Source of the DNA: Pirellulaceae bacterium
GTDB taxonomy: Bacteria; Planctomycetota; Planctomycetia; Pirellulales; Pirellulaceae
Length of the DNA stretch: 52,099 bases
Reading direction: 5' to 3'
NCBI GenBank assembly: GCA_024102795.1
Contig: JAGFJK010000366.1
Span: 1 to 52,099 of the forward strand
Below the pieces are notes generated by a model that searched no databases, had not been told where the DNA came from, and saw only the letters and a program-made list of their open reading frames with translations. Positions within the stretch are counted from its first letter, which is position 1; each line of letters opens with the position of its first letter. This document shows positions 5,024 through 52,099 of the stretch, in pieces. The position numbers and the translations under genes are program-made.

Positions 5024-5118
5024 GGTGGCTTGGCTGAACGGTTGATTCGATGTGGAGAGCGCCAGATTCCGCTGCTGAATTATAAGGCGGCGACCGGAAG
5101 AAGTACCACCCACCTGGA

Positions 5119-5261
5119 GTCGCCTTTCGCTCCGCGCATAGTCGCCTTTCGCTCCGCGAAAGTAGCGGACGCCGCGATTGGGCCTTCCGGCGCCAGCGAA
5201 ATGTGAGCTGCCGCGCTACTTTCGCGGAGCGAAAGGCGACGATGCACGGAGCACAAGGCGA
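5119..5261. repeat. GCGGAGCGAAAGGCGAC palindromic repeats
   Basis: There are units at 5119-5136 and 5141-5166, an inverted unit at 5215-5240, and a degenerate unit at about 5243-5261. The core CTTTCGC-GGA-GCGAAAG forms a 7-bp stem with a 3-base loop. The same family occurs at 35889-35959. The block ends at the stop codon of the next gene (5262). Confidence 0.8.
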
Positions 5262-5639
5262 CTACGGCGTCGAGGGTGGGGAAGCGTCTTGGTTGTCCGC
5301 GCGGTGTTGCTGGTGCCGCTGGATCAACTGTTCCATCTCCCGGCGGTCCGCCTGGATTTTCTTCCAGCGAACCGACTTGCCTCGCAGCAAGCGCAGCGCG
5401 TACGGGACCCGCATGGTCAGATAGACGCTCATCGCCACGGCGTAAATTCCCAGGCCGATCTGAAAGGAGCGGGGCAGGTCCGCCACGCGCAGCCAGGCAC
5501 ACGCCGCCGCAATCAGCGTGGTCAGCGCCAGCAGCGGCAGAATGCCGAACTGGTAGCGGTCTCGGGCCCTGGTCGAGGCGGAGGCCGCCAGCGGCTCGGA
5601 GGCTGTTGATTGGTCGTCAGCGGCGGGTGGTTCGATCAT
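5262..5639 (-). CDS. Small inner-membrane protein, unknown function
   Basis: A 125-residue protein with a polar N-terminus (about 1-30), two hydrophobic segments (about 32-48 and 61-77) and a charged C-terminal tail (about 84-125) with many Arg, Lys, Gln and Glu residues, likely helical and cytoplasmic. No family is recognised. The ATG at 5639 gives the full hydrophobic region. It lies 56 bp downstream of the larger exported protein at 5696-6598 on the same strand, so the two probably form an operon. Confidence 0.7.
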   Translation of the reverse strand: MIEPPAADDQSTASEPLAASASTRARDRYQFGILPLLALTTLIAAACAWLRVADLPRSFQIGLGIYAVAMSVYLTMRVPYALRLLRGKSVRWKKIQADRREMEQLIQRHQQHRADNQDASPPSTP

Positions 5640-16692: not shown

Positions 16693-17183
16693 CGCGACCG
16701 GAGCCCGGCCCAGCCCGCAGTGGGCACGACGCCGTCGCGGCAACCGGCGACTGGCTGCGTTTCTGCATCGCCTGCCACGCTGCGCCCGACTCGCCGCGGC
16801 TGGCAAGTCCCTGCGAGTTGCAAGGGATGATTCTCCAACCGCTCGCGATGGAACCGGCCGAGCTGGCGCAACCGCTGCCGATAAGTTTCGAGTCGGCCTG
16901 CGAAGCGCTGGCGAGACTGCCGCGGATGTTCTGCGAACCGGACGGCTCGTTCGTCTGGCGCGGCGATCAACCTCGCCCGTGGCAGGTCGACGGCGTGCTG
17001 TATGACGACGGGAGGCGACTGGTGCACGTGGAGCTGAAGGGTGAATGTCCGGCCGAGGCGTTCCAGCGGTTGCTTGCCACCATAACGCCCGATCCGCGGC
17101 AACTCGTATATCAGTTGCTTCGCGAAGGTCTCGTTCTGGACCAGCCGCAGTTCCACCGCTGGGCCTCCCGCCCCGCGAATTAA
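16689..17183 (+). CDS. Hypothetical protein coupled to ugd-cutA
   Basis: A 164-residue protein not matched to a named family. There is no signal peptide or TM helix. The N-terminus has a FCIACHAAP motif; the CXXCH makes this formally haem-c-like, but without an export signal a haem site is unlikely. The C-terminal half (about 95-160) looks like a compact alpha/beta domain (VDGVLYDDGRRLVHVELKG). It starts with GTG overlapping the cutA stop. Its TAA stop ends at the first base of the 130-bp inverted-repeat element at 17183, so the original 3' end may have been altered by that element. Confidence 0.72.
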   Translation: MTRPEPGPARSGHDAVAATGDWLRFCIACHAAPDSPRLASPCELQGMILQPLAMEPAELAQPLPISFESACEALARLPRMFCEPDGSFVWRGDQPRPWQVDGVLYDDGRRLVHVELKGECPAEAFQRLLATITPDPRQLVYQLLREGLVLDQPQFHRWASRPAN

Positions 17184-17312
17184 CCTCTGGGGTCGATTTG
17201 GCAAGCTGGGCGCCCCGGCGAACTTAGTGTGGGCGAACGTTGAGCCCCGCTGACGTCTGGCCGTTACCTGGAACCCGTAGACTTCGGCGTTTAGCAAATC
17301 GACCCCAGAGGT
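17183..17312. mobile_element. 130-bp MITE-like element, copy 1
   Basis: The ends are perfect 18-bp inverted repeats (ACCTCTGGGGTCGATTTG). There is no coding capacity. It is the same length as the copy at 20636-20765 and differs at roughly ten positions by eye, in the same orientation. Both copies are preceded by GCGAATT. No clear target duplication is seen. Copies 1 and 2 bracket the sigma/kinase pair. Confidence 0.72.
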
Positions 17313-17336
17313 CAATAGCTCGGGTGCCAGGGTTGG

Positions 17337-19937
17337 CTACTGTGCCACGCGCGGACTTGAGGCGGGCATGCGCCAGATCCGGAGCGCGAAGTCCTGGCCG
17401 CTGATGGCGCCGCCGAAGGGCGAGTTCGTTCCACCGCCCGCGGATACAGCCGTCTGGCCATCGGGCGCGAATTGTGCCTTCCACACCCATCCCTGATGCC
17501 CCAGGCAAAGCTGCAGCTCCTCGCCCGTCTGCACATCCCACACGCGGACCGTGTTGTCCTCGCCGGCCGAAATCAGCCGCGTGCCGTCAGGCGAATAGGC
17601 AACCGAACTTACCTGTCTGGTGTGGCCGTGCAGGGTGCGCAGCACCGTACCGTGTTCCAGGTCCAGGATGCGGATCTCCGTGGCTGTCGCGAATGCCAGG
17701 CTGCGCCCGGTCGGCGAATGACTGATGCTCCAGACCCAGCGCTGCTGGGGCAAATCGGCGATTTTCCGCGCGGCCGCCAGGTCCCAGACCCGCAGGTGAT
17801 TCGCTCCTTGCGTACCGGTCAGGGCCAACTTACCGTCCGGCGAAAACGCGACCGCCCTTACCGCCGGCGTCTGACAGGGCAGCGTCAGGGACCGCTCGCC
17901 CGTTCTCAGGTCCCAGACGACGGCATCCTCTTCGCGGCCGGCGCTGAGGACCGAATGGCCGTCCGGCGAGACCGCCAGCGCGTAAACGCTCGCGGCGTGG
18001 ATTTGCACTTGGCGGAGCAGCCTGCCCGTGGCGATATCCCATACGCCCAGCGCGCCATCGCTACCGCCAACAACCACCGACTGGCCGTCCGGCGTCACTG
18101 CCAGCGCCACCCATTCGCCGGGCGCTTCCCGGCTGCCCGACAAACCGGTGGGCAACTGGATACCCGTGGTGTCACATTGGCGCAACTGCTGGCCCGTGGC
18201 CACATCCCAGACCCGAATCGTCTTGTCGCCCAGCGGCCAGCCACTGCACGAGATCAGCAGCCTGCCGTCCGGAGTGTAGGCCACGTCCTTGACTGGTCCC
18301 TGGTGTCCGGCCAGTCGCTTCAGCTCGAACGGCGACGGCGCGAAGTTCCCGCTGGCGCGCTCCTGGCGCACCTGTTCGCGCAGCAGCGAGTCGGGGTTGA
18401 CGATCGTTACCTGTAGCGGCTGCGTCGCGGCCGGCCGAGGCCCGCCCGGGTTGCCCTGGTCCGTTTCGCCACCCTTGCCGCCTTCACCACTTTCACCACC
18501 AGCGCCACCTCCGTCTCCGCCACCGCCTTTTCCACTCTCGCCAACTTCACCGCCATCGCCACCCTCGCCACCCTCGCCACGCTCGTCGCCGAGGCCAGCT
18601 TTGCTACCGGCGTCAAGAGGGGCGAGGGCGGCGGTTTGACTGGCCACGTAATCCCAGGCTCCGGAAAGCGAAACGGCCGCCAGCAGGATGGCCGCCAGGC
18701 CGGCTACGGATATCGTCACGCGGGTTGCCGCCCTGGTCGAACGATCGCTCCCGGCCACAGCCGGACTGGCGCGTTCGACGGCCGCCAGCGCCGATTGCAC
18801 GGCCGCCATGTTGGCGAACCGGTCGGCGGGAGACTTGTGGAGCAACCGATCGACGATGGCGGCCAGTGAGGGCGGAATCTCGGGCCGCGCATCGTCCAAT
18901 GCCGGTGGCTGTTCGTGAACGGTCCGATGCAAGACTTTCCAGGGATCACAACCGGCCAGCGGCGGCTTGCCGGTGCCCATGGCGAAAAGCACACAGCCCA
19001 GACTGTATTGATCGCTGGCCGGCCCCAGCTTTTCGCCCGCGACGTGTTCGGGGGACATGTACTCCGGAGTACCGGCCAGATGTTCGCCGCCTTCGGGCCA
19101 GTCGTCACCGCTCGACCTGGCCAGCCCGAAGTCGGTCAGCTTGACTCGCCCCGACTTCTCGTCCAGCAGGATGTTACCTGGCTTCACATCGCGGTGGATG
19201 ATGCCCAAGTCATGGGCCGCTTGCAGGCCGGAAGCCACTTGCCCAGCGATCCTGACGGCATCGCGCCAGTCGAGCGGACCGGTGCGCGCCAGGCGGTCCT
19301 GCAGCGAGCCGCCCGACACATACTCCATAACCAGGAAAGGGGTGTTGTCGTGCTGTTCGATCGAGTGGATTTGCACGACATGGTCGCTCCGCACGGCGGC
19401 CAGGGCCCGCGCCTCGCGGAGAAACCTCTCCCGAAAACCGTCCCCGGACCGCGTCATCGACGTCATCAGCTTGATGGCGACATCCCGTTGAAGCTGCGTA
19501 TCGCGGGCCAGGTAGACAATCCCCATACCGCCTTGGCCGAGACGATTCAGGATCACGTAGCGGCCCATGCGACCAGGCGTATCGGACAGGTTGAACTGCG
19601 TCATGGCCGTGGAATCGTCCACCGCCGTTTCGCCATCACTGGTCGGGCCTTGAGTGGGCAAAGTCTCGAACAGGCTTCGCAGCAGCGTAGCCTTGAGTTG
19701 ATCGATTTCGACGGTCGGCTCTGGTTGAGCCTGGCTTAGCCGACGCCCGTATTCGCGCCAACTGGCGGCATCGGCCACGATCAAGTCCAATCGCTGGCGA
19801 CAAGTGTCGCAGGCGTCCAGATGGCGAGTCAGGAACTCGCAGTCGATGGCGGTCGATTCCGCCACCAGCAACTGCAGCTCGGAGTCCGTGAGGCAGGTAT
19901 CGGCCGGAGAGTCCGCGGGAGCGGAGATAGAGATCAT
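17337..19937 (-). CDS. Membrane Ser/Thr kinase with N-terminal zinc-finger-like motif and WD40 propeller
   Basis: An 866-residue signalling protein. Residues 30-50 hold His39, Cys43 and Cys46, the H-x3-C-x2-C pattern of zinc anti-sigma domains. The kinase domain (about 126-390) is complete: GQGGMG at 135-140, Lys156, Glu175, HRD 248-250 and DFG 269-271. A TM helix (about 406-425) and an unusually Gly/Glu-rich linker (about 449-499) follow, then WD40 repeats (about 530-866), probably outside the cytoplasm. The overlapping ECF sigma gene (TGATG) is the obvious partner. Inference: the propeller senses something in the periplasm, and the kinase or zinc motif controls the sigma factor. The ATG at 19937 was chosen from that overlap. 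Confidence 0.9.
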   Translation of the reverse strand: MISISAPADSPADTCLTDSELQLLVAESTAIDCEFLTRHLDACDTCRQRLDLIVADAASWREYGRRLSQAQPEPTVEIDQLKATLLRSLFETLPTQGPTSDGETAVDDSTAMTQFNLSDTPGRMGRYVILNRLGQGGMGIVYLARDTQLQRDVAIKLMTSMTRSGDGFRERFLREARALAAVRSDHVVQIHSIEQHDNTPFLVMEYVSGGSLQDRLARTGPLDWRDAVRIAGQVASGLQAAHDLGIIHRDVKPGNILLDEKSGRVKLTDFGLARSSGDDWPEGGEHLAGTPEYMSPEHVAGEKLGPASDQYSLGCVLFAMGTGKPPLAGCDPWKVLHRTVHEQPPALDDARPEIPPSLAAIVDRLLHKSPADRFANMAAVQSALAAVERASPAVAGSDRSTRAATRVTISVAGLAAILLAAVSLSGAWDYVASQTAALAPLDAGSKAGLGDERGEGGEGGDGGEVGESGKGGGGDGGGAGGESGEGGKGGETDQGNPGGPRPAATQPLQVTIVNPDSLLREQVRQERASGNFAPSPFELKRLAGHQGPVKDVAYTPDGRLLISCSGWPLGDKTIRVWDVATGQQLRQCDTTGIQLPTGLSGSREAPGEWVALAVTPDGQSVVVGGSDGALGVWDIATGRLLRQVQIHAASVYALAVSPDGHSVLSAGREEDAVVWDLRTGERSLTLPCQTPAVRAVAFSPDGKLALTGTQGANHLRVWDLAAARKIADLPQQRWVWSISHSPTGRSLAFATATEIRILDLEHGTVLRTLHGHTRQVSSVAYSPDGTRLISAGEDNTVRVWDVQTGEELQLCLGHQGWVWKAQFAPDGQTAVSAGGGTNSPFGGAISGQDFALRIWRMPASSPRVAQ

Positions 19938-20530
19938 CACGAGTCCTCTGCTTGGAGGGATTGAACCATCTTGTGCAAACGCATCAGGACGCGTCCCTTG
20001 GCCACATACACGGCACCCACGCTCATGCCGAGCGTTTTGGCCGCCTGCTTGCCGCTCTGACCCTCGATCGCCGTCAACTGAAACGCCCGCCAGGTCAACG
20101 GCCCGACGGACTCCTGAACGCGAGCGGCCGCCAGAGCCAGGATCTGCTCCTGGCACTGTCGCTCCCAATCCTGCAATTCGACAGCGCTCGTGTTCACACA
20201 GATTGCCTCTGGCTGTCCCTCGGTTCGAACTGCCATTTCGCGGCGCTGCCGGCAGTGAAAGTCGTGCAGCTTGTTCCGTACGATGCGAAACAACCAGGCT
20301 CGAAAAGTTCCCGTTTCAGGGTTGTAATCGAACCGGTGAACTCCCGTCACCAGTGCCCGCAGCACCTCCTGGGTCAAATCCGACGCGTCGGCGTCCTGCA
20401 GCCCCCGTTTGCGACAGAAGCTGTAGACGACCGGTGCGTAGAGGTCCACAAACTGTTTCCAGGCCTGGAGATCCTGCCTGTCGCGCAGGCGAATCAGCAG
20501 CGTCGGTCGGGTCAGCGGCGGCTGCAACAT
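19937..20530 (-). CDS. ECF RNA polymerase sigma factor (kinase-linked type)
   Basis: A 197-residue ECF sigma factor with region 2 (WKQFVDLYAPVVYSFCRKRG, DLTQEVLRAL, FRAWLFRIVRN) and region 4 (AFQLTAIEGQSGKQAAKTLGMSVGAVYVAKGR). It directs RNA polymerase to its own promoter set, which cannot be told here. ECF factors encoded beside Ser/Thr kinases are a known planctomycete group (ECF-STK). The stop overlaps the kinase start (TGATG). A GAGGA ribosome site lies 8 nt before the ATG. The 130-bp inverted-repeat element ends 106 bp upstream, so any promoter lies in that gap or within the element. Confidence 0.93.
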   Translation of the reverse strand: MLQPPLTRPTLLIRLRDRQDLQAWKQFVDLYAPVVYSFCRKRGLQDADASDLTQEVLRALVTGVHRFDYNPETGTFRAWLFRIVRNKLHDFHCRQRREMAVRTEGQPEAICVNTSAVELQDWERQCQEQILALAAARVQESVGPLTWRAFQLTAIEGQSGKQAAKTLGMSVGAVYVAKGRVLMRLHKMVQSLQAEDS

Positions 20531-20635
20531 GAACTCGTCCTCTGCCTTTGCATTCTGGGCTCCGCCAGAAACCTAACACAAACCCCGGCTGACTTCACGA
20601 ACTCCGCCTGCCCGCATGGACTCCGGGGCGAATTG

Positions 20636-20765
20636 ACCTCTGGGGTCGATTTGGCAATCTGGGCGCCCCGGCGAACTTAGTGTGAGCGACGGCTGACCTC
20701 CGCTGACGTCTGGCCGTTACCTGGAACCCGTAGACCTCGGCGTCTAGCAAATCGACCCCAGAGGT
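20636..20765. mobile_element. 130-bp MITE-like element, copy 2
   Basis: It has the same 18-bp perfect terminal inverted repeats and length as copy 1 at 17183-17312, in the same orientation. It ends 2 bp before the stop codon of the transporter gene (20768) and lies 106 bp upstream of the sigma factor start. The left flank GCGAATT is shared with copy 1. Confidence 0.72.
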
Positions 20766-20767
20766 CG

Positions 20768-22357
20768 TTATCTCAGCAGCTCGATCAGCAGCGGCGCCAT
20801 CAGCGTCAGCAGGATCAGGGCCAGCGGATAGACCGTGGCGTAACTGGTGGCCGGGCGGCTGGAATCGACGGCCGAGGAGATCACGCCCAGCGCCGGGGTC
20901 GAGGTCATCGCGCCGCAGATGCCGCCCAGCATCTCCAAGGCATCCATTTTCAGGCACCAGCGAGCGACCAGGCAGCCGACCAGTAAGGGCACGATCAGAA
21001 TCACCACGGCCGCGCCGCACAGCGCCGGGCCTTGCGCCCTCAGCACAGGCAGCAGTTGCGAACCGGCCTGGGCCCCCGCGTCGGCCAGAAACAGGGCCAG
21101 CCCGATCTCGGAAAGCAAGAACCGCGCGGCGCGCGGCATGTGCCCCACCAGCGGCCCCACGCGCCCGAAGTGTCCCAGCAACAGCCCGACCAGCAACGGT
21201 CCGCCGGCCATGCCCAGCGAAATCTCGGTGTCGCCCAACTGAACCTGGACCTGCCCGACGACCACTCCCAACGCCAAACCGGTGACGAGCGAAATCAGGT
21301 CCGTCTCGTCGATCGTCCGCTCGCGGTGCCCAGCCCGCTGAGTGAACTTCTGCAGGTCATCGGGATTTCCCACCACCGTCAGCGCGTCGGCGAACTGCAG
21401 TTTCTCATCCATCCCCGGCACGATCTCGACGTCGTGGCGATGGATTCGGATCACGTTCACTCCGAAACGCGACAGCAGGTGCAGATCGGCCAGCGACTTG
21501 CCGACCATTTCCTTCGAGGTGACCACGACTTGCCGCCGCTGCCGCTCGGTGTCCAGCGTGTAGCCCGTGTCGTCGCATCGCTGACCCAACGCCTCGACCA
21601 CGTCGCCCAACCGCCGCTGATTGCCGATCAGCAGCAGTTTCTGCCCCAACTCCAGGCGGAAATCCGCCGGCAAGGGCAGCAAGGCCGTGCCGACCAGCAG
21701 ACGCGAGACGCGGCAGTTCGCCCGCCGCAACGTACTGATCTCGTGCAGGCCGCGGCCCACGACCGCCGGGTTCTGCACCTCGACCAACGCTCGGGTGATG
21801 ACCCGCGCTTCCGGCGACTCGGCCAGGTTCTGGCTGGCGGCCTCCCACAGACGGCGAAACAAGCGGGGTGCCAACTGCACGAACACGATCACGCCGACCA
21901 CTCCCACCGGGTACGCCAGGCCGAAGCCGACGGCCACGTCCGAATTGCCTGGCAGCCGTTCGGCCGCCGCTGCCAGCGCCGGAGTGCTGGTCAATGCTCC
22001 CGCGAACAACCCGCTGGCCAGACCTGGACTCAGGCCGAACAGGCGAGCCAACAGCCAGGTGGCGGCCGCGGCCGAGATGATCATGGCCGCTCCCAGGACC
22101 GCCAAAGACTTGCCGTTGCGGGTCAGCGACCGCAGGAAGCTGGGCCCCGCTCCAAGTCCCAGGCAGTAGACGAACAGCACGACGCCGACAATGCCGGCCA
22201 GCCGCGGTACCTGGAATCCGAATTGGCCGGCCGCCAGAGCCACGAACAACACGCCGGCCGAACCGAGCGACAGGCCCCGCCAAGTGAGCCGGCCGAGCGC
22301 CAAGCCCAACCCGACCACCACCAGCAGGGCCAGAAACGGTTTGATGGTTTCATCCAT
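20768..22357 (-). CDS. AspT/YidE-type transporter with two TrkA-C domains
   Basis: A 529-residue membrane transporter of the aspartate:alanine exchanger family. Two homologous membrane halves (about 1-170 and 360-529, each with an SxTPAL segment: ALTSTPALAA and AMTSTPALGV) flank two soluble TrkA-C-like domains (about 190-270 and 280-355). E. coli YidE and YbjL share this order and size. The substrate is unknown; AspT exchanges aspartate and alanine, but most relatives are uncharacterised. The ATG at 22357 was chosen because it starts the first TM helix; a longer frame from 22444 adds a polar leader. It is divergent from the YfhO-like gene. Confidence 0.87.
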   Translation of the reverse strand: MDETIKPFLALLVVVGLGLALGRLTWRGLSLGSAGVLFVALAAGQFGFQVPRLAGIVGVVLFVYCLGLGAGPSFLRSLTRNGKSLAVLGAAMIISAAAATWLLARLFGLSPGLASGLFAGALTSTPALAAAAERLPGNSDVAVGFGLAYPVGVVGVIVFVQLAPRLFRRLWEAASQNLAESPEARVITRALVEVQNPAVVGRGLHEISTLRRANCRVSRLLVGTALLPLPADFRLELGQKLLLIGNQRRLGDVVEALGQRCDDTGYTLDTERQRRQVVVTSKEMVGKSLADLHLLSRFGVNVIRIHRHDVEIVPGMDEKLQFADALTVVGNPDDLQKFTQRAGHRERTIDETDLISLVTGLALGVVVGQVQVQLGDTEISLGMAGGPLLVGLLLGHFGRVGPLVGHMPRAARFLLSEIGLALFLADAGAQAGSQLLPVLRAQGPALCGAAVVILIVPLLVGCLVARWCLKMDALEMLGGICGAMTSTPALGVISSAVDSSRPATSYATVYPLALILLTLMAPLLIELLR

Positions 22358-22743
22358 GATCGCACGTTCAAGGCAAATGCCATGCCGGTGACGGCCACAG
22401 GCCGCGAACATACGCACCGAAAACGCCACTTCGGGTGGTTCCACAACACGCCGGCTTTACTCCTTCCCGACGCGCTGGGCGGGCACGCATTGTGACGCGG
22501 CTTTCTATACACCATCGACGCAGGAATCGGTAGTGCCCAACAATCGGGCACCGGAGTCGAAAGTTCACACATCCGGAGTGGCGACAACTTGCCAGGCGCT
22601 GCGAACAGAGTCAGAATCGGCTCCACCTGAGTGGAGGATCGGGAGGATCGGACGACCCAAGGGACATTCACCGTCGGCCATCGGGATTCGACCGGCGACT
22701 TCGCGGCAACTGAACCAGCACCCTCGCACCAAACCGGAATCCC
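22358..22743. other. Divergent intergenic region
   Basis: 386 bp between the minus-strand transporter and the plus-strand YfhO-like gene. No gene or repeat was recognised. A candidate plus-strand promoter (TTGCCA 22590-22595, 17-bp spacer, CAGAAT 22613-22618) may serve the YfhO-like gene, leaving a leader of about 120 nt. Confidence 0.45.
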
Positions 22744-25656
22744 ATGAACCGACACGTTGCGGTGTTATCGTGGGCCAGCGTCGTGCTGATTCCGTTGTTG
22801 GCGTGCTTCGGCGGGCCGGTTGTCCGCGGCGAAACGTTTGTGCTGCAGGACACCGCCAGATTCTACTACCCGCTGTTTGCCTGGACCCACGACCAGTGGA
22901 TGCGGGGGCGAATCCCGTTGTGGAACCCGCAAGAGAATTGCGGCATGCCGGTCGTGGGAGACACGACCTCCAGCGTCTTCTATCCGGGCAAACTGATTTT
23001 CCTGTTGCCGGGTGGTTTCAACTCGAACTTCAACTGGTACGTGGTGCTGCACGTGCTGGCAGCGGCCGTGTCGGCACTGCTGGCCGCGCGAAGCTGGCGG
23101 GCCAGCCCGCCGGCCGCCGCCTGCTGCGCTCTGGCCTACGCCTTCGGCGGCTACACGCTGTACCAATACACCAACGTGGTGTTTCTGGTGGGAGCGGCCT
23201 GGTTGCCGCTGAGTCTGCTGGCGGCCGACCGGATGCTGCGGCGCCGGAGCCTGAAGTGGTCTGTCCTGCTGGGCGTCGCGTTGGCGATGCTCACGCTGGG
23301 CGGCGACCCTCAGACGGCATACCACGTCGGCCTGCTGGCGGCCGCGTACGGGCTGCTGCTGTCATGGCTCGTTCGGCGACGTCATCGCAGGCTTCGGTCC
23401 ATCCGTGCGGCATCGCCGTCCAGCAGGCACGACGGACCTCGCGCCGCGCATCGACCGGCGCGACGTTCCTCGCCAGGCCGGTCCAACCCGCCGACCAAAC
23501 AGGCGGGCGCGAAACAGCGGCCGGCTTCGATCCATTGGTTCGCATCGTGCTGGCAGTCCGGGCGCCGCGGCACGCGCCGCCGAGCGGTCCTGCTGGCCGC
23601 GGCCGCCACAACCGGAGCGTGCCTGGCCGCGATACAGATCGTGCCGTCGATGCAGTGGAACGCGCGGAGCGAACGGACCGCCTTCCGCGCGCCTCGCAAC
23701 CTGTTTCAAGTTCCCGCCGTGTTGCGACGCGAAGCCAGCCGCCCGCTCGCCGCGGATTCTCCGGCTACCGCAGACCGCGGCGGGAATCCGTGGCACCTGG
23801 TCGGTCAAGGCCTGCTCGGCTCGCCCGAACCCTACTCGCATCATCGCAACTTGTACCGTTACAGCATCCAGCCGTGGCGGCTGGTCGAACTGCTGTGGCC
23901 GAACATCGGAGGCAAACCGTTTCCAGTGAATCGCCGGCTGCTGCTGGCTTGGAACGCCGCTGAGCCAGACTGGACGCCGTCGCTTTATCTGGGCCTGGTT
24001 CCCGTGCTGCTTGGCCTGTCAGCCTGGTCGCTGCGCGGTAGCTCGCTGCGCACGCGCTGGATCTCCGGCTGGGTGCTGCTGGCGATTCTGGCCAGCTTTG
24101 GCTGGTACGGGCCAGGTTGGTGCCTGCGGGCCTGCCAAGGCCTTGCTGCGGCGGATGCGGGCGCGGCGAGCCAGCCGTGGTTGGGCGAACCGGTGGGCGG
24201 CGTTTATTGGCTGTTGGTCACGCTGCTGCCGGGGTACGATCAGTTCCGGTATCCGGCCAAATGGTTCTTGTTCGCCACGTTCGGGCTGGCTCTGCTATCG
24301 GCGCGCGGCTGGGACCGGCTTGTCCGGCGGCCGTGCCCCGCGCTGAGGCTGGCGCTAGCCTGGACCGTCACGTCGGCGCTAGCGCTCGGCATCGCGTTGC
24401 TGATGCGGCCCACGATCACCGGTTGGCTGCGTTCCGTGCTGGCCGACGAGTTACATGGTCCGCTGGTGGCGGAACAGGCCGGCTGGGACCTGGTGCTGGT
24501 AATGCTGCATGCGACGCTGGTCGGCGGCCTGGGTTGGTGGTTGCTGCGGCAGATGTCCCGCACCGCGAAGCTTGGTCCGCGAGTGGGCCTGTTGCTGCTG
24601 ACAGCTTGCGAATTGGCGTGGGCTCAAGGTTGGCTGGTCGTGACGGGGCCAGCGGACATCTGGCGCGATCGACCCTGGGCCGCCGCGCGGATCGACATGC
24701 ACGCGGCGGAGCTGCCGCCGAGCGGCTACCGGGTGATGCGCCGAGCGTGGTCGAACTGGAATCCCGCGGAGTGGACCAAGCGGTCGGACGCGCGGCGATC
24801 GGCCGAGGGGTTGCTTTGGCATCGGGAAACGCTGTTTCCGCGCACGATCCTGACGACTCCGCTGTCGATGCTGGAATCGCCGTCTTCGGTGATGTCCGAC
24901 GATTTTCAGTCAGCCATCGGGATCGCTCGCCAGTTCGGCTCGGCCGGTCCCGGACAGGCGCCCGAACCGCACACGTTGTTTCTGAGCACGCTGGGAGTGC
25001 GGTACCTGATCGAGCCGGCGGGAGCGACAGCGTCGGCGCGGCCGGCGGGATTCGAACCGCTGGCGAACGCGACTTCAGCCGAACGGAACGCGGCGGTGCT
25101 ATTCAACCCGCACCATCTGCCACGGAGTTGGATCGTGCATCGGGTGGAGCAGCTACCGCGGTTGGACACCACCGATCCCCAGGTCCTGGACGCCTTGACC
25201 GCGCACGTCTTTTTTCCCCAGGAGCGGTTCCGCGACTTGCGGCACGAAGCGGTGGTCGAAGTCGGCCGGGCTCCCCTGCCGGTCGTGCCCGTGCAGCCAG
25301 ATGCCCCCAATGACGAAGCCTGCCGCGTGGTGCGTTACGAACCGCGGCGAGTCGATATTCAAGCCGCGCTGGCCAGCCCGGGGCTGGTCGTGCTGAGCGA
25401 CCTGTACGACGCCGACTGGCGGGCGCGGGTGATTCCGGCGACAGGCGAGCGGGCGGTGCCGGTCGAGGTGCTGCGGACGAATCGGATCATGCGGGGTGTG
25501 TTCTTGCCCGCCGGCCGCTTCACCGTGGAGTATACCTACCAGCCTCGCGGCTTCTGGTGGGCGGCCGCGGTCAGCGCGTTGAGTTGGTGTTCCCTGGCGA
25601 TCGGTGGGCTGCTGGCGCGCTTTCGCCGAGCACGATGCGGCCAAACGAGTGAATAG
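22744..25656 (+). CDS. YfhO-like multi-span membrane protein
   Basis: A 970-residue membrane protein of the YfhO family, which resembles polytopic GT-C-like glycosyltransferases and is linked in Firmicutes to lipoteichoic acid glycosylation. Visible features are a short first TM, an Asp in LQDTARFYYPLF as in GT-C catalytic loops, WNPQENCGMPV, about ten more TM segments up to about 620, a soluble domain, and a last TM helix near the C-terminus. An Arg/Pro/Ser-rich insert of about 65 residues (about 210-275) interrupts the TM region. Role inferred: transfer of a sugar to an envelope glycan or protein. The start is an ATG with no strong ribosome site. Confidence 0.8.
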   Translation: MNRHVAVLSWASVVLIPLLACFGGPVVRGETFVLQDTARFYYPLFAWTHDQWMRGRIPLWNPQENCGMPVVGDTTSSVFYPGKLIFLLPGGFNSNFNWYVVLHVLAAAVSALLAARSWRASPPAAACCALAYAFGGYTLYQYTNVVFLVGAAWLPLSLLAADRMLRRRSLKWSVLLGVALAMLTLGGDPQTAYHVGLLAAAYGLLLSWLVRRRHRRLRSIRAASPSSRHDGPRAAHRPARRSSPGRSNPPTKQAGAKQRPASIHWFASCWQSGRRGTRRRAVLLAAAATTGACLAAIQIVPSMQWNARSERTAFRAPRNLFQVPAVLRREASRPLAADSPATADRGGNPWHLVGQGLLGSPEPYSHHRNLYRYSIQPWRLVELLWPNIGGKPFPVNRRLLLAWNAAEPDWTPSLYLGLVPVLLGLSAWSLRGSSLRTRWISGWVLLAILASFGWYGPGWCLRACQGLAAADAGAASQPWLGEPVGGVYWLLVTLLPGYDQFRYPAKWFLFATFGLALLSARGWDRLVRRPCPALRLALAWTVTSALALGIALLMRPTITGWLRSVLADELHGPLVAEQAGWDLVLVMLHATLVGGLGWWLLRQMSRTAKLGPRVGLLLLTACELAWAQGWLVVTGPADIWRDRPWAAARIDMHAAELPPSGYRVMRRAWSNWNPAEWTKRSDARRSAEGLLWHRETLFPRTILTTPLSMLESPSSVMSDDFQSAIGIARQFGSAGPGQAPEPHTLFLSTLGVRYLIEPAGATASARPAGFEPLANATSAERNAAVLFNPHHLPRSWIVHRVEQLPRLDTTDPQVLDALTAHVFFPQERFRDLRHEAVVEVGRAPLPVVPVQPDAPNDEACRVVRYEPRRVDIQAALASPGLVVLSDLYDADWRARVIPATGERAVPVEVLRTNRIMRGVFLPAGRFTVEYTYQPRGFWWAAAVSALSWCSLAIGGLLARFRRARCGQTSE

Positions 25657-30464: not shown

Positions 30465-33400
30465 ATGCCGTATCCCGATGACCCGAGGCTGGATCCGACC
30501 ATTGACGCGGCCCGCGAGCAGGACGCAGTTGGCGACGGGCTCGATACGGTCGATACCACCGCGGCTGCCGGATCCGTCGCCGACACCACGCCCTATGTCG
30601 CAGTCCCACCGGCCGATGCCCCCACGATTCCCGGCTATGAAATCACGGGCTTAATCGCCAAGGGCGGCATGGGTCGAGTTTATGCCGCCCGCGATCTGAC
30701 GCTGGCCCGCGAAGTGGCCATCAAGACGCTGTTGCCGGGCGCCAATGCCGAACGGTTTGTCACCGAGGCACGGATCACCGCCCGGCTGCCGCATCCCGGC
30801 ATCCCGCCGGTGCATGCCCTGGGCACGTTGGCCGAGGGCACGCCCTACCTGGCGATGAAGCTGATCCGCGGCCAGACGCTGGCGGAACTGCTTGAGCAGC
30901 GCGGGTCTCCGGACGAGAAGCTGCCGGGGCAAGTACAGGTTTTCGAACAGATCGCGCAGGCGGTCGGTTTCGCCCACGCCCGCGGGATCATCCACCGCGA
31001 CCTGAAGCCGCTGAATGTGATGGTGGGCGAGTTCGGCGAGGTGCAGGTGATGGACTGGGGGCTGGCCAAGGACCAGGCCGCCCCGGACCGTGCCCCGATG
31101 GAAGACACAGAAGCCACAGGGACGACGGAAACTGCACGGACACCGGAAGCCGTTGACTTGACAGCGGACGGGGCCGTTATGGGCACGCCTGGCTACATGG
31201 CGCCCGAGCAGGCTCGCGGGGAAGCCGTCGATGCTCGAGCCGATGTGTTCGCCCTGGGGTCGATCCTGGCGGTCCTGCTGACCGGCCGTCCCGCCTTCGT
31301 CGGCAGCAACCCTCGGGAAACGATCACCCGAGCGGCCTCGGCCGATCTGGCCGAGATCCTGAAGCAGTTGGACGCGTCCGGTGCGGATGAAGAGCTGGTC
31401 GCGCTGGCCAAGAGTTGCCTGGCGGCCGACATGGCGCAGCGTCCGGCCGATGCGCGGGCGGTGGCTGCCGAAGTGGCCGACTACCGGGCCGGGGTGGAAC
31501 AGCGCTTGAAGGCGGCCGAGACGGAGGCCGCCGAGGCGCTGGTCCGCGAGGCGGAGCAGCGGAAACGGCGGCGCGCGATGCAGGTGGCCGCCGGCGCGAT
31601 TTTCGCGGTCCTGCTGCTGGGCATCGCTGGCACCTCGCTGGGCCTGGTGGTCGCCAATCGCCAGCGGCTCGCCGCCGACCAGTCCGCCGAGAAGGAGCGA
31701 CTGGCCAGCCTGGATGCGCAGGCGAAGGAGAAACTGGCCGTCGCGGCGGCCGAGAAGGAACGGATCGCCACGGAGCTGACGGCCGAGCGGCTGCGGCAGA
31801 TCGAGATGATCAACAACACGATTTTTGACATCTTCACGGAGTTCGATATCCGGCAAGTGAAGCAGGGGACCGAGCCGGTCGAGTACGTGCTGGCGCAGAA
31901 GTTGACCGAAGCCGGTAAGAAGCTGGACGCGAAGGCGATCCACGATCCGCTGGTGCTGGCCAGTCTGCAAGACCGGCTGGGACGCACTCTGTTAAGCCTG
32001 GGAGAGGCCCAGGCCGCGATCGAGTTTTTGACAAGCGCGCTGGCCATTCTCCAGGTCCAACTCGGACCAGAGCACTCCCATACGCTCGGCACGATGAACA
32101 GCTTGGCAATCGGTTACCAGGACGCCGGGAAGCTCGACCTTGCTCTGCCGCTGTTCGAGCAGGCGGTCCAGCTCTCCAGGGCCAAGCTCGGCCCGGATCA
32201 CCCCGGCACGCTCAATTCCACGGTCAACCTCGCCGGCTGCTATGTCTTCGCGGGAAGGCTTGACCTTGCCCTGCCGCTGATCGAGGAGACGCTCCAGCTC
32301 CAAAGAGTGAAGCTCGGCCCCGACCAGCCCGAAACGCTCGCCAGCATGAACAATCTGGCCGCCGCCTATTCGGCCGCGGGCAAACTCGACCTGGCCCTGA
32401 CCTTGTACGAGGAAACACTCCAGCTCTCCAGGGCCAAGCTCGGCCTGGTTCACCCCGGGACGCTCACCAGCATGAACAATCTGGCCGCCGCCTATTTGGC
32501 CGCGGGCAAGCTCGACCTGGCCCTGCCGTTGTTCGAGGAGACACTCCAGCTCAAGAGAGTAGAACTCGGCGCCGACCACCCCGACACGCTCAAGACCATG
32601 AACAACCTTGCCAGCGGCTATCGGGCCGCGGGCAAGCTCGACCTGGCCCTGCCCCTATACCGGATGACGCTCCAGCTTGCCAGGGCCAAGCTCGGCCGCG
32701 ACCACCCCGACACTCTCAACAGCTTGAACAGCCTGGCAGTGGGCTACCAGGACAGCGGGAAGCTTGACTTGGCCCTGCCGCTTCTCAAGGAAGTGCTCGA
32801 GCTCCGCGAGGCCAAGCACGGCCCTGACCACCCTGACACGCTCGGCAGCATGAACAATCTGGCAGCAGGCTATCAGGCCGCCGGCAAGCTCGAACTTGCC
32901 CTGCCGCTGTACCAGAAGACGCTTCCGTTCCGCAAGGCCGAACTCGGCCCCGACCACCCCGAAACGCTTGCCAGCATGAACAGCTTGGCAGTGGGCTACC
33001 ATGCCACCGGCAAGCTCGACTTGGCCCTGCCACTGTACGAGGAGACGCTTCAGCTCAGAAAGGCCAAGCTCGGACCCGATCACCCCGAAACGCTTGTCAG
33101 CATGAACAATCTGGCAGCAGGCTATCAGGCCGTCGGCAAGCTCGAACTTGCCCTGCCGCTGTACCAGGAGACGCTCCAGCTCCGCAAGGACAGGCAGGGC
33201 CCTGATCACCCCGAAACTCTCGCCAGCATGAACAACCTGGCAGCAAGCTACTGGAGATGCAAACAACTCGACAAGTCGATTCCCTTGTTCGAGGAGACGC
33301 TCAGACGCTTTGAGTCAAAGCTCGGACAGGACCATCCGGACGCGATTCGCGTCGCCGCGAACTTGGGCGTGAACTACAAAGACGCCGAGCGGCTGGCCGA

Positions 33401-33965
33401 GGCGCTCCCGCTGCTCGAGGCAGCCTACCGGGCGAGCAGCCGTCACCCGAGCTTGGCATGGGTCGCAAGTCCGCTGCTGGATGCGTACGTCCAGGCCGGG
33501 GAGGCCGCCAAGGGAGCTGCACTCGCCAAGGAACTTCTCGCGACCGCCCGCCCAGGATTGCCCCAGGACAGCCCTCAACTCGCTGCAAAACTTGCCGAGA
33601 CCGGCCGGATTCTGATGCAACTGGAGTCCTGGTCCGACGCCGAGCCGATCATCCGTGAGTGCCTGGCGATCCGCCAGCAGGCGCAGCCCGAGGCGTGGTT
33701 GACGTTCAACTCGCAAGCAATGCTGGGCGCGGCCTTGCTGGGACAAGAGAAGTACGCCGAGGCCGAGCCGCTGTTGCTGGCCGGCTACGAAGGTATGAAG
33801 GCCCGCGCGGAAACCATCCCGCCGCAGGCCCAACCACGCCTCACTGAAGCCCTCGACCGCCTCATCGACCTCTACACGGCCACAAACAACCCCGACGAAG
33901 TGGCGAAGTGGCAAGCCGAACGAGCCACCTACGCGCCGTCCGACCCACAGGAACCAGGGAAGTAA
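30465..33965 (+). CDS. Membrane Ser/Thr kinase with C-terminal TPR array
   Basis: A 1166-residue protein. The kinase domain spans about 58-335, with AKGGMGRVY, Lys87, Glu101, HRDLKPLN at 177-184 and APE near 246-248. The metal-binding motif is DWG (197-199) instead of DFG. A charged linker (about 340-370) leads to one TM helix (about 372-396) and a coiled segment. From about 533 a kinesin-light-chain-like TPR array runs for ten regular 42-residue units plus a weaker eleventh, followed by further helical TPR-like sequence to the end. The TPR part is probably extracytoplasmic and may bind peptides or proteins. No sigma factor adjoins it. Confidence 0.92.
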   Translation: MPYPDDPRLDPTIDAAREQDAVGDGLDTVDTTAAAGSVADTTPYVAVPPADAPTIPGYEITGLIAKGGMGRVYAARDLTLAREVAIKTLLPGANAERFVTEARITARLPHPGIPPVHALGTLAEGTPYLAMKLIRGQTLAELLEQRGSPDEKLPGQVQVFEQIAQAVGFAHARGIIHRDLKPLNVMVGEFGEVQVMDWGLAKDQAAPDRAPMEDTEATGTTETARTPEAVDLTADGAVMGTPGYMAPEQARGEAVDARADVFALGSILAVLLTGRPAFVGSNPRETITRAASADLAEILKQLDASGADEELVALAKSCLAADMAQRPADARAVAAEVADYRAGVEQRLKAAETEAAEALVREAEQRKRRRAMQVAAGAIFAVLLLGIAGTSLGLVVANRQRLAADQSAEKERLASLDAQAKEKLAVAAAEKERIATELTAERLRQIEMINNTIFDIFTEFDIRQVKQGTEPVEYVLAQKLTEAGKKLDAKAIHDPLVLASLQDRLGRTLLSLGEAQAAIEFLTSALAILQVQLGPEHSHTLGTMNSLAIGYQDAGKLDLALPLFEQAVQLSRAKLGPDHPGTLNSTVNLAGCYVFAGRLDLALPLIEETLQLQRVKLGPDQPETLASMNNLAAAYSAAGKLDLALTLYEETLQLSRAKLGLVHPGTLTSMNNLAAAYLAAGKLDLALPLFEETLQLKRVELGADHPDTLKTMNNLASGYRAAGKLDLALPLYRMTLQLARAKLGRDHPDTLNSLNSLAVGYQDSGKLDLALPLLKEVLELREAKHGPDHPDTLGSMNNLAAGYQAAGKLELALPLYQKTLPFRKAELGPDHPETLASMNSLAVGYHATGKLDLALPLYEETLQLRKAKLGPDHPETLVSMNNLAAGYQAVGKLELALPLYQETLQLRKDRQGPDHPETLASMNNLAASYWRCKQLDKSIPLFEETLRRFESKLGQDHPDAIRVAANLGVNYKDAERLAEALPLLEAAYRASSRHPSLAWVASPLLDAYVQAGEAAKGAALAKELLATARPGLPQDSPQLAAKLAETGRILMQLESWSDAEPIIRECLAIRQQAQPEAWLTFNSQAMLGAALLGQEKYAEAEPLLLAGYEGMKARAETIPPQAQPRLTEALDRLIDLYTATNNPDEVAKWQAERATYAPSDPQEPGK
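32061..33446 (+). repeat. Eleven 126-bp coding repeats (TPRs)
   Basis: Each unit encodes 42 residues of the form LGPDHPETLxSMNNLAxxY, then GKLDLALPLYEETLQL. Units 1 to 10 keep exact 126-bp spacing, with unit 1 at 32061 and unit 11 at 33321, so no indels have built up. Unit 11 is degenerate. Confidence 0.92.
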
Positions 33966-35888: not shown

Positions 35889-35959
35889 CGCTACTTTCGC
35901 GGAGCGAAAGGCGACAATTTTCGCGGAGCGAAAAGCTACTATGCGGAGCGAAAGGCGAC
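35889..35959. repeat. GCGGAGCGAAAGGCGAC repeats filling a convergent gap
   Basis: Three units (35889-35914, 35918-35940 and 35942-35959) of the family at 5119-5261. They occupy nearly all the space between the stops at 35883 and 35961. The CTTTCGC-GGA-GCGAAAG palindrome works on either strand and could act as a bidirectional terminator. Confidence 0.8.
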
Positions 35960-37857: not shown

Positions 37858-39270
37858 TCAAGCCAGCAGTTCGGTCAGGACGCGGCCGTGGACGTTGGTC
37901 AAACGCCGCTGGATGCCGTTGTGGTAGAACGTCAGCCGCGTGTGGTCGATGCCCAGCAGGTGCAGAATCGTGGCGTGGAAATCGTGCACCTCGACGGGAT
38001 TCTCGGCCGCCTTCCAGCCCAGTTCGTCCGAACTGCCGTAGACCAGGCCATGTTTCAGCCCAGCGCCGGCCAGCCAGGCACTGAACACATCCGGATTGTG
38101 GTCGCGACCGGGTCCGGCTTTGTCGCCGGCGCTCTCGGCGTACGGCGTGCGACCGAACTCGGTGTTGAACACCACCAGCGTTTCGTCCAGCAGACCGCGC
38201 TGGCGGAGATCGCGCAGCAACGCGGCCACGGGCCGGTCGATCCTGGACGACTCACGGCGATGGTTATCGGGCACGCTGCCGTGCGCGTCCCAGTGGACTT
38301 CGCGGCCAAACGCCGCCCCGCTCCACAACTGCACGAAGCGCACGCCGCGTTCCACAAGCCGCCGGGCCAGCAGGCACCCACGGGCGAAATCGGCGCATTC
38401 CGGGCGGTCCACGCCGTAAAGGGCCAGCGTGGACGCCGTTTCCAACGCCAGGTTCGTGGCTTCCGGAATCGCCAACTGCATGCGGGCCGCCAGCTCGTAG
38501 CTCCGCTGGCGACTCGCCAGCATCTCGTCCGCCTCGTGCCGCGAGCGATGCCGATCATTCATCCAGCGCAGCGCGGCATACCGGGCGGCCAGCGCGGGAG
38601 GCTCAATCTCGATCGCCGGCTGCAGATCGCGGACGGCGGGGCCCGACGTCTGCAACACCACGCCTTGATGCCGCGCCGGCAGGAAGCCGCTCGACCAGTT
38701 GTTCGCGCCGCCCGTCGGCCACGAACGGCTGTCGGGCAATACGACAAACGTCGGCAGATTGTCCACTTCGCAACCCAGGCCGTAGGAAATCCAGGAGCCT
38801 GCCGCCGGGAAACCCAAGGTGCGAAAGCCGCTATTGGCCTCGTACGTGGCCGGCGTGTGATTGCCGGTGCCCGACCAGAGGGACCGAATCACCGTCAACT
38901 CGTCCGCCACCTCGGCCAGATGCGGAAACAGGTCCGAGATCCACAGGCCGCTGCGGCCGCGCTGCCGGAAAGTGAAATGGGCCTGGTGCATGCGGCCCAC
39001 GCGCCCCATGAATCCTTCGGCTCCGGCGGGCGGTGTCTTACCGTGCAGCTTTTCCAGGTGCGGCTTGTAGTCGAACGAATCGACCTGGCTCAAGCCGCCC
39101 TGCAGAAACACCTGGATGACGGCCGTGGCTCGCGGCCGATGGTGCGGCGGGGCATCGGCCGCTTCGCCCGGCACGGGGGCCGCCAGGGCTTCTCTTCCCA
39201 GCAGGCTGGCAAGCGCCATGCCGCCCAGACCATGGGAGAAGCTGCCGAGCAGATCTCGTCGAGTGAACAC
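37858..39270 (-). CDS. Tat-exported DUF1501 protein
   Basis: A 470-residue DUF1501 protein of the alkaline phosphatase/sulfatase superfamily, very abundant in planctomycetes; the activity is unproven. The N-terminus has a twin-arginine signal (TRRDLLGSF, then a hydrophobic region to about 30). Conserved pieces are QGGLSQVDSFDYKP, SGTGNHTPATYEAN, NTEFGRTPY, GRDHNP and HDFHATILHLLGIDH. GTG at 39270 was chosen because GGAGGA lies 8 nt upstream and it puts the Tat motif at residue 3; longer starts add 21 residues. It follows the PSD1 gene by 52 bp, an arrangement typical of this phylum. Confidence 0.92.
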   Translation of the reverse strand: MFTRRDLLGSFSHGLGGMALASLLGREALAAPVPGEAADAPPHHRPRATAVIQVFLQGGLSQVDSFDYKPHLEKLHGKTPPAGAEGFMGRVGRMHQAHFTFRQRGRSGLWISDLFPHLAEVADELTVIRSLWSGTGNHTPATYEANSGFRTLGFPAAGSWISYGLGCEVDNLPTFVVLPDSRSWPTGGANNWSSGFLPARHQGVVLQTSGPAVRDLQPAIEIEPPALAARYAALRWMNDRHRSRHEADEMLASRQRSYELAARMQLAIPEATNLALETASTLALYGVDRPECADFARGCLLARRLVERGVRFVQLWSGAAFGREVHWDAHGSVPDNHRRESSRIDRPVAALLRDLRQRGLLDETLVVFNTEFGRTPYAESAGDKAGPGRDHNPDVFSAWLAGAGLKHGLVYGSSDELGWKAAENPVEVHDFHATILHLLGIDHTRLTFYHNGIQRRLTNVHGRVLTELLA

Positions 39271-39322
39271 GGTGGCTTCCTCCGCGCGACGCGACGGCCG
39301 GTCGCGGTTTTCCGATCGGCCT

Positions 39323-45812: not shown

Positions 45813-45972
45813 GGGACTATGGAGCAAAGCGATTCGCTCAATTCGCACATGGCTACTCGCGGGACGCGGATTTCGGACAAGTCGAACATCAATTTGGGAT
45901 TTGAATTCTTGAGTGCGTCAGGTGTTGGCTGATTCCGTCGGGTGCCAGCTGCGTCAAAACAAGATGCACAAG

Positions 45973-46022
45973 AGCCCCTCCCCAGCCCTCCCCGGAAGCC
46001 GGGGAGGGGGCCAGAGGGATTT
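45973..46022. repeat. CCCTCCCC palindromic repeat, copy C
   Basis: Inverted relative to copy B. It carries CCCCTCCCCAGCCCTCCCCGG and its GC-rich complement, and runs directly into the 46018-46122 repeat. Confidence 0.8.
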
Positions 46023-51693: not shown

Positions 51694-51714
51694 ACCTCTG
51701 GGGTCGATTTGGCA
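51694..51714. repeat. Orphan end of the 130-bp inverted-repeat element
   Basis: ACCTCTGGGGTCGATTTGG plus CA matches the left end of the elements at 17183 and 20636. No matching right end follows within the window. Confidence 0.7.
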
Positions 51715-51879
51715 GGATAGGAAGAATAACGTCGGACGACGTGCTTGCTGGCGGGGCGAGGATCCGTGGGCGCCGAAGATCGGTGGTCTGGCTGGTGCGG
51801 CGCGAACCCAGGCGGACGCGTTTCGAAGTTACGCTTTGCTTGCTGAAACCATGCTGCCGGGAAGGCTACGAAATTTAAG

Positions 51880-51930
51880 ACCCTCTGGCTCCCTCCCCGG
51901 CTTCCGGGGAGGGCTGGGGAGGGGCTCGTC
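51880..51930. repeat. CCCTCCCC palindromic repeat, copy D
   Basis: CTGGCTCCCTCCCCGGC followed by TTCCGGGGAGGGC and GGGGAGGGG; same family as 45763-45812 and 45973-46022. Confidence 0.8.
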
Positions 51931-51946
51931 GAGGCGGTAGCGTTTG

Positions 51947-51964
51947 ACCTCTGGGGTCGATTGG
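51947..51964. repeat. Second orphan end of the 130-bp element
   Basis: ACCTCTGGGGTCGATTGG is a near-match to the left end, in the same orientation as 51694, 253 bp away. Only the terminal part is present. Confidence 0.6.
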
Positions 51965-51975
51965 GTACGCTGCGG

Positions 51976-52099
51976 GCGACTGGCGCGCCCAGAATCACGG
52001 GCTGGAAGCCCATGCTACGACTGGAAGCGCATGCTGCGACTGGCGCGCCCAGAATCACGGGCTGGAAGCCCATGCTACGACTGGAAGCGCATGCTGCGA
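51976..52099. repeat. 60-bp tandem repeats at the window edge
   Basis: From 51976 the sequence repeats exactly every 60 bp to the window end, giving a little over two units. Each unit contains GGGCTGGAAGCCCATGCTAC and a variant GGAAGCGCATGCTGCGAC, so the array itself is built of a shorter repeat. It continues past the window. Confidence 0.88.

Follow-up and report, generated by a model that had tools for sequence, protein, structure and literature searches.

Tyrosine transposases that lie between terminal inverted repeats have been described as TIRYTs or TIRtrons, and copies of these repeats can also occur around the genome singly, as dimers, or in groups (PMC3733652). In the same description, R. 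baltica holds many TIRYT genes and repeats, and a GGGGWSAS motif is common to some, but not all, of the published terminal inverted repeats (TIRs) (PMC3733652). Among published TIRYTs, 20/26 belong to subclass 2.1 (PMC6006769), and 17/20 of the REP classes reported for clade I RAYTs occur mostly as doublets (PMC3116915). The repeat family that we describe here is new and is of the known TIRtron/TIRYT kind; no description of this particular repeat was found in the literature, which was searched by topic.

The window, by which we mean the whole stretch of 52,099 nucleotides that was analyzed, is contig C292 of a Pirellulaceae bacterium assembly of 8.56 Mb in 519 contigs. It contains two 130-bp elements on the + strand, copy 1 at 17183..17312 and copy 2 at 20636..20765, which are 93% identical by sequence comparison and have the same orientation. 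Each begins with a left terminal repeat (17183..17200 and 20636..20653, + strand) and ends with its inverted counterpart (17295..17312 and 20748..20765, − strand), perfect over 18 bp in both copies and over 19 bp in the right-hand copy. The 19-mer end has 6 matches in the real window at a tolerance of 3 mismatches, versus 0 in 100 window shuffles. Between the elements lie two minus-strand genes, one for an ECF-type sigma factor of 197 aa (19937..20530) and one for a serine/threonine kinase with a WD40 propeller (17337..19937), and the ATG start of the kinase gene overlaps the sigma stop codon as TGATG. Pfam supports these identities with Sigma70_r2 above its cut-off (Sigma70_r4_2 falls slightly below, 21.9 versus 25.7 bits) and with Pkinase and WD40 in the kinase gene; genes that Pfam does not support were called with a simple codon model fitted to the window, and these calls are approximate. 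An initial annotation made from the sequence had proposed just this arrangement, including the equal lengths, the shared orientation, the 18-bp perfect ends, the TGATG coupling, and the nature of the two genes, and all of it holds.

Both window elements abut gene 3′ ends. A + strand reading frame ends at 17183 in a TAA stop whose final base is the first base of copy 1, and this copy is placed between two converging genes. Copy 2 lies between two minus-strand genes, 105 bp upstream of the sigma gene start and 2 bases from the stop codon of an antiporter gene (Asp-Al_Ex / TrkA_C permease, 20768..22444, − strand) that is located upstream of the module. The left 40 bp of the 130-bp element are 84–87% like other members of the end-repeat family described below. 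Past the ends and this left subterminal stretch, the interior shows no similarity to the transposase element on contig C263 (below) or to the other loci examined, and it was found at only these two places in the assembly, both flanking the sigma/kinase module, which makes the two copies each other's closest kin there. Beyond the element ends, their likeness extends for ~7 bp on the left and to scattered bases on the right. The initial annotation had noted a shared left flank, GCGAATT; it is present in both copies, but its ATT is the consensus of the whole end-repeat family (88/117 sites), so that only GCGA is specific to the pair. Comparison of the flanks at the two elements showed no target duplication, in agreement with the earlier description.

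The end repeat is widespread across the genome. The 18-mer with at most 1 mismatch occurs at 167 sites (85 forward, 82 reverse) versus 0 in a reversed-sequence control. Among 100 listed sites, 14 are less than 900 bp from a contig start, where ~5 would be expected from 519 contigs; this excess suggests that the assembly may break at copies, and 167 may be a lower bound. Positional counts given here use either the 100 listed of the 167 sites or 117 distinct sites (≤2 mismatches) in the loci examined. Conservation continues outward from the end as ATT in 88 of these 117 sites and inward as a looser GGCAGGATGGG. The left shoulder of the end reads GAC-N-ATT in 36/117 sites and GGAC-N-ATT in 19/117. 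GGAC-N-ATT resembles an IS200-type target or guide, but the full shoulder is present at those 19 sites only, and we regard it as no more than a lead. On contig C117, a second copy starts right after GGAC within a first, but the first never resumes beyond it. The bodies beyond the conserved end fall into several different-looking groups, and the majority of the 117 sites are solo ends whose bodies have no tie to the transposase element. Inward-facing pairs within 1 kb number 10 among the 100 listed exact sites. GC skew carried no information on strand preference, being close to zero and of varying sign along the window, and 11/20 solo sites, from one batch of loci, agreed with its sign.

Two further ends, which the initial annotation had not noted, occur in the window itself, a solo terminal repeat with a different body (51694..51711, + strand) and a solo repeat with 1 mismatch (51947..51964, + strand). 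These solo ends (51694–52095) are near a perfect 60-bp tandem duplication containing CACGGGCTGGAAGCCCATGCTAC, a sequence that also trails many copies of one end-repeat subfamily elsewhere; the duplication is probably a separate repeat family. The window holds other repeats as well. Another dispersed palindromic repeat (CGCTACTTTCGCGGAGCGAAAGGCGAC) is found in both orientations at 5118–5263 and 35889–35942, and a 47-nt inverted repeat pair (45972–46018 and 51881–51927, 5.9 kb apart) is 98% complementary and rich in CCTCCCC; similar stretches adjoin several copies of the 18-bp end family. Finally, 126-bp tandem units, reported as nine overlapping 300-nt copies, occupy 32054–33361 inside a long reading frame (30465–33965); the encoded protein also has matches among the kinase regions of relatives.

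End-repeat sites avoid genes and often abut gene 3′ ends. Among 104 end sites with enough flank, 1 is genic, 8 are too close to a locus end for assignment, and 95 are intergenic, the last comprising 54 between tandem, 26 between convergent, and 15 between divergent genes. By comparison, 6000 random points included 3968 genic, 880 tandem, 388 convergent, and 387 divergent positions, with 377 unjudged. Within 50 bp of an end site, the counts were 35/106 for gene 3′ ends versus 3/84 for gene starts. Widespread occurrence near gene 3′ ends, which the initial annotation had considered damaging to a cassette interpretation, is thus found for the end repeat and is not found for the 130-bp interior.

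A candidate source of the ends is present in the same genome. Five of its genes score above the cut-off of the PF01797 profile, and one of these, on contig C263, has an exact copy of the 18-mer on either side, in inverted orientation, the whole forming an element of 901 bp from end to end. Its protein is a Y1 (IS200/RAYT-type) tyrosine transposase (PF01797 score 54.2 versus a cut-off of 23) that stays under the NCBIfam cut-off for the REP-associated tyrosine transposase model (60.5 versus 80 bits). The HUH motif and the catalytic tyrosine are conserved in this and three other Y1 transposases, read by eye as NHWH and YVERN in C263, C341, and C455 and as SHWH and YVERN in C517. At the C517 gene, an inward-facing pair of ends starts on the last base of the transposase stop codon. 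The Y1 transposase genes at C341:4731–5515 (L124) and C455:10450–11211 (L123) have terminal repeats of their own (25 bp at 100% and 28 bp at 96%, respectively), which are unlike the window's repeat and suggest that each Y1 enzyme in this genome has its own end sequence. At least three TIR-flanked Y1 transposase elements are therefore held by the genome.

Part of the repeat family consists of deletion derivatives of the C263 element. Inward-facing end pairs at most 1100 bp apart, with up to 3 mismatches per end, number 22 in the loci examined, the C263 element included. Of the 21 others, 10 match the C263 element beyond the ends, over more than 45 bp at 70–83% identity, and in 7 of those 10 the match enters the transposase reading frame. 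The matching pairs form one group of 176–189 bp, a second of 309–312 bp, and a single 225-bp element. The two 130-bp elements in the window match the C263 element at their ends only; since their interior lacks similarity to it, their descent from this element is argued from the ends.

The reading that we favor, with a probability of roughly 0.77, is that the 130-bp elements share the ends of a Y1 element and have likely been spread in trans by its enzyme, and that the two copies in the window arose by local copying while the genes between them stayed in place. A C263-type Y1 transposase would act in trans on short noncoding elements with 18-bp inverted ends, and the elements would spread singly, leaving behind the genes that lie between them. 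IS200/IS605 enzymes cut single strands and leave the target unduplicated. By analogy with these and with RAYT enzymes, the transposase may cut the ends as single strands and insert them with no target duplication, which the lack of such a duplication in the window fits. The same enzymes serve as a mechanistic analogy for end recognition (PMC6006769), in which the transposase would bind a small hairpin of each end (ATTGACC/GGTCGAT), predicted to fold weakly at −3.2 kcal/mol. On this view, one of the window copies would be the parent and the other its nearby daughter, presumably copied from it, or both would be local daughters, and hairpins in transcripts would at most affect the 3′ ends of neighboring mRNAs. 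The elements that bracket the module probably belong to an ordinary repeat family and do not delimit a mobile signaling cassette. The symmetric bracketing would then be one instance of a repeat family found throughout the genome, for which a likely enzyme can be named.

One alternative is that the second copy arose by local duplication through recombination or replication slippage, with no transposase involved, and later diverged by 7%. An interior unique to two nearby copies in the same orientation accords with such an event, and so do three ends spaced regularly at 166 bp near the start of contig C336 (C336:50–399). However, the likeness between the copies stops at the element ends, apart from the ~7 bp and scattered bases noted above, and such precise ends favor a transposase over illegitimate local duplication. 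We regard this alternative as unlikely.

The spacing of copies supports the favored reading of local copying and bears on a stronger form of it, in which the transposase family would preferentially place elements nearby and in the same orientation and so enclose host operons between direct repeats. Among the 100 listed sites, 11 loci have same-orientation neighbors within 5 kb, the sigma/kinase module being one of them, and no outward-facing pairs were found there other than the ones that necessarily result from the double elements on C292 and C400. At C400:13508–16933 (L110), a different subfamily is represented by two elements of 493 and 447 bp that share 83% identity and stand in the same orientation ~2.5 kb apart, and this locus and the present module are the two cases seen of same-subfamily pairs at kilobase distance. 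The two predicted reading frames between the C400 elements have no Pfam match, and that locus shows no match to any gene of the window, including sigma and kinase. In a rough simulation of 88 random units on 7.4 Mb (a guessed length; 2000 runs), close neighbors in any orientation numbered 5.1, with a maximum of 13, compared with 12 observed in the same orientation, an excess that is suggestive only. That the 130-bp interior is found only at the flanks of the module speaks against a purely incidental arrangement, which would not predict this. Preferential local copying nonetheless strikes us as distinctly unlikely. If it were true, the sigma/kinase pair would be a pre-formed cassette prone to loss or amplification, and the outer ends could in principle move all 3.58 kb.

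The initial annotation had gone further and viewed the region as a composite, bracketed by miniature inverted-repeat transposable elements (MITEs), in which the signaling pair could have moved or been duplicated as a unit. The MITE-like character of the elements stands, now with a candidate source transposase, but the composite unit is not supported. Movement of the 3.58-kb sequence by the elements or by the outermost inverted ends would accord with the intact, inverted outer ends at 17183 and 20765 and with an interior confined to these two places. Against it, the GC content of the module is ordinary (0.654 versus 0.651 for the window), target duplication was not seen in the flanks, and the end repeat is dispersed over the whole genome, nearly always between genes. 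The 100 listed sites also include ten other loci with same-orientation neighbors, and C400 has a comparable bracketed 2.5-kb stretch with neither a sigma nor a kinase gene. The genome also lacks any close duplicate of the pair, its top-scoring sigma paralogue reaching only 36% identity. We therefore find the composite cassette improbable. No empty site was found that would demonstrate mobility, and movement of the sigma/kinase genes is unproven.

Related genomes offer a further view of the signaling pair. We searched 59 relatives, none of the same genus, and compared 20 sigma loci, each the best match from one of 20/59 relatives (omitting G053, which ranked immediately above the lowest relative included), together with 13 antiporter loci, for a total of 33. 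The sigma gene adjoins a kinase gene in 19/20 of the sigma loci, and in the twentieth the contig stops 0.3 kb past the sigma gene. With up to 2 mismatches, the end repeat is absent from all 20 sigma and 13 antiporter loci, and with up to 1 mismatch it is absent from 57/59 relatives, each of the other two having one stray copy. Because the two genes are adjacent in relatives that lack the repeat, they are likely an old pair that has been kept together in the absence of these elements. Gene order around the pair differs between the relatives and the window, and so speaks neither for nor against an insertion here. In the 33 loci there was no match to gyrA, the dehydrogenase gene, the small reading frame at 16827–17183, or the gene at 22744–25656, and antiporter and sigma matches occurred together in 0/33 loci. 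Single further window genes are found near the antiporter or the sigma gene at L171, L175, L197, and L201. A scan of genome contigs with the sigma protein, from which the present genome's own records may be missing, returned two relatives at 35% identity.

In one relative, G008, contig C78 (L225, L226) carries a sigma/kinase pair, an antiporter gene, and two further homologues within ~17 kb. About 8.4 kb separate this less similar pair from the antiporter gene, on the other side of which are homologues of the window genes at 37858–39333 and 39323–42166. Its sigma factor is 32–37% identical and is not that genome's best match. The arrangement may be due to chance, G008 having 22 sigma matches, or may be a trace of old linkage; such linkage, if real, would speak against a recent arrival of the sigma/kinase pair.

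The elements are predicted to fold strongly if transcribed, at about −67 kcal/mol for the hairpin of each 130-bp element; the + strand of copy 1 and the − strand of copy 2, folded as RNA, both beat 200/200 shuffles (z = −5.8 and −5.5, respectively). Least probable of all is that they are host regulatory RNA or terminator structures selected at the borders of a signaling operon, which these stable predicted hairpins and the placement beside gene 3′ ends would suit, but the elements have no Rfam match (three weak matches in the window, below gathering scores, are all in coding genes), no T-tract terminator or sigma-70-type promoter was found at them (the sole terminator-like site found is inside the sigma gene), the 167 end copies have differing bodies, and the end repeat is missing from the sigma loci of 20 relatives.

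Under the favored reading of singly spreading elements with Y1-type ends, the window elements share features with several known systems. A composite transposon consists of cargo genes flanked by two similar elements that point the same way. The module has this layout, but no cargo movement, cargo copy, or target duplication is seen. As in MITEs, the elements are short and noncoding, their terminal inverted repeats are those of a resident transposase element, and the family includes internal-deletion subfamilies; a body derived from the transposase element is recognizable in 10/21 other inward-facing pairs and was not detected in the two window elements. They differ from MITEs in showing no target-site duplication, a feature that is not expected of a Y1 transposase, unlike a DDE transposase. 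With REPINs, as published, they share inverted doublets of a short conserved end with a predicted hairpin, an extragenic position, a link to a RAYT, and some tandem clusters. In contrast to REPINs, the GTAG or GGAG foot of REPs is missing, with GAC-N-ATT as the left shoulder in 36/117 sites, singlets predominate (22 inward-facing pairs versus 117 sites, counted with different mismatch limits), and the element measures 130 bp.

The comparison with TIRtrons and TIRYTs, as far as these have been described, is closer. In both, a Y1 transposase gene lies between terminal inverted repeats (here the 901-bp element on C263), the repeat is dispersed as single, dimeric, and grouped copies (here 167 sites), and several transposases with different repeats are present in one genome. 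Differences are that the end found here, GGGGTCGA, is one base (the seventh) off the GGGGWSAS of some TIRs, and that many copies have bodies unrelated to the transposase element. The closest known kind is thus TIRtron/TIRYT repeats, followed by REPINs. With a transposase element, several deletion derivatives, and more than 100 end copies in one genome, the family is a good setting for studying how REP-like repeats arise from tyrosine-transposase elements.
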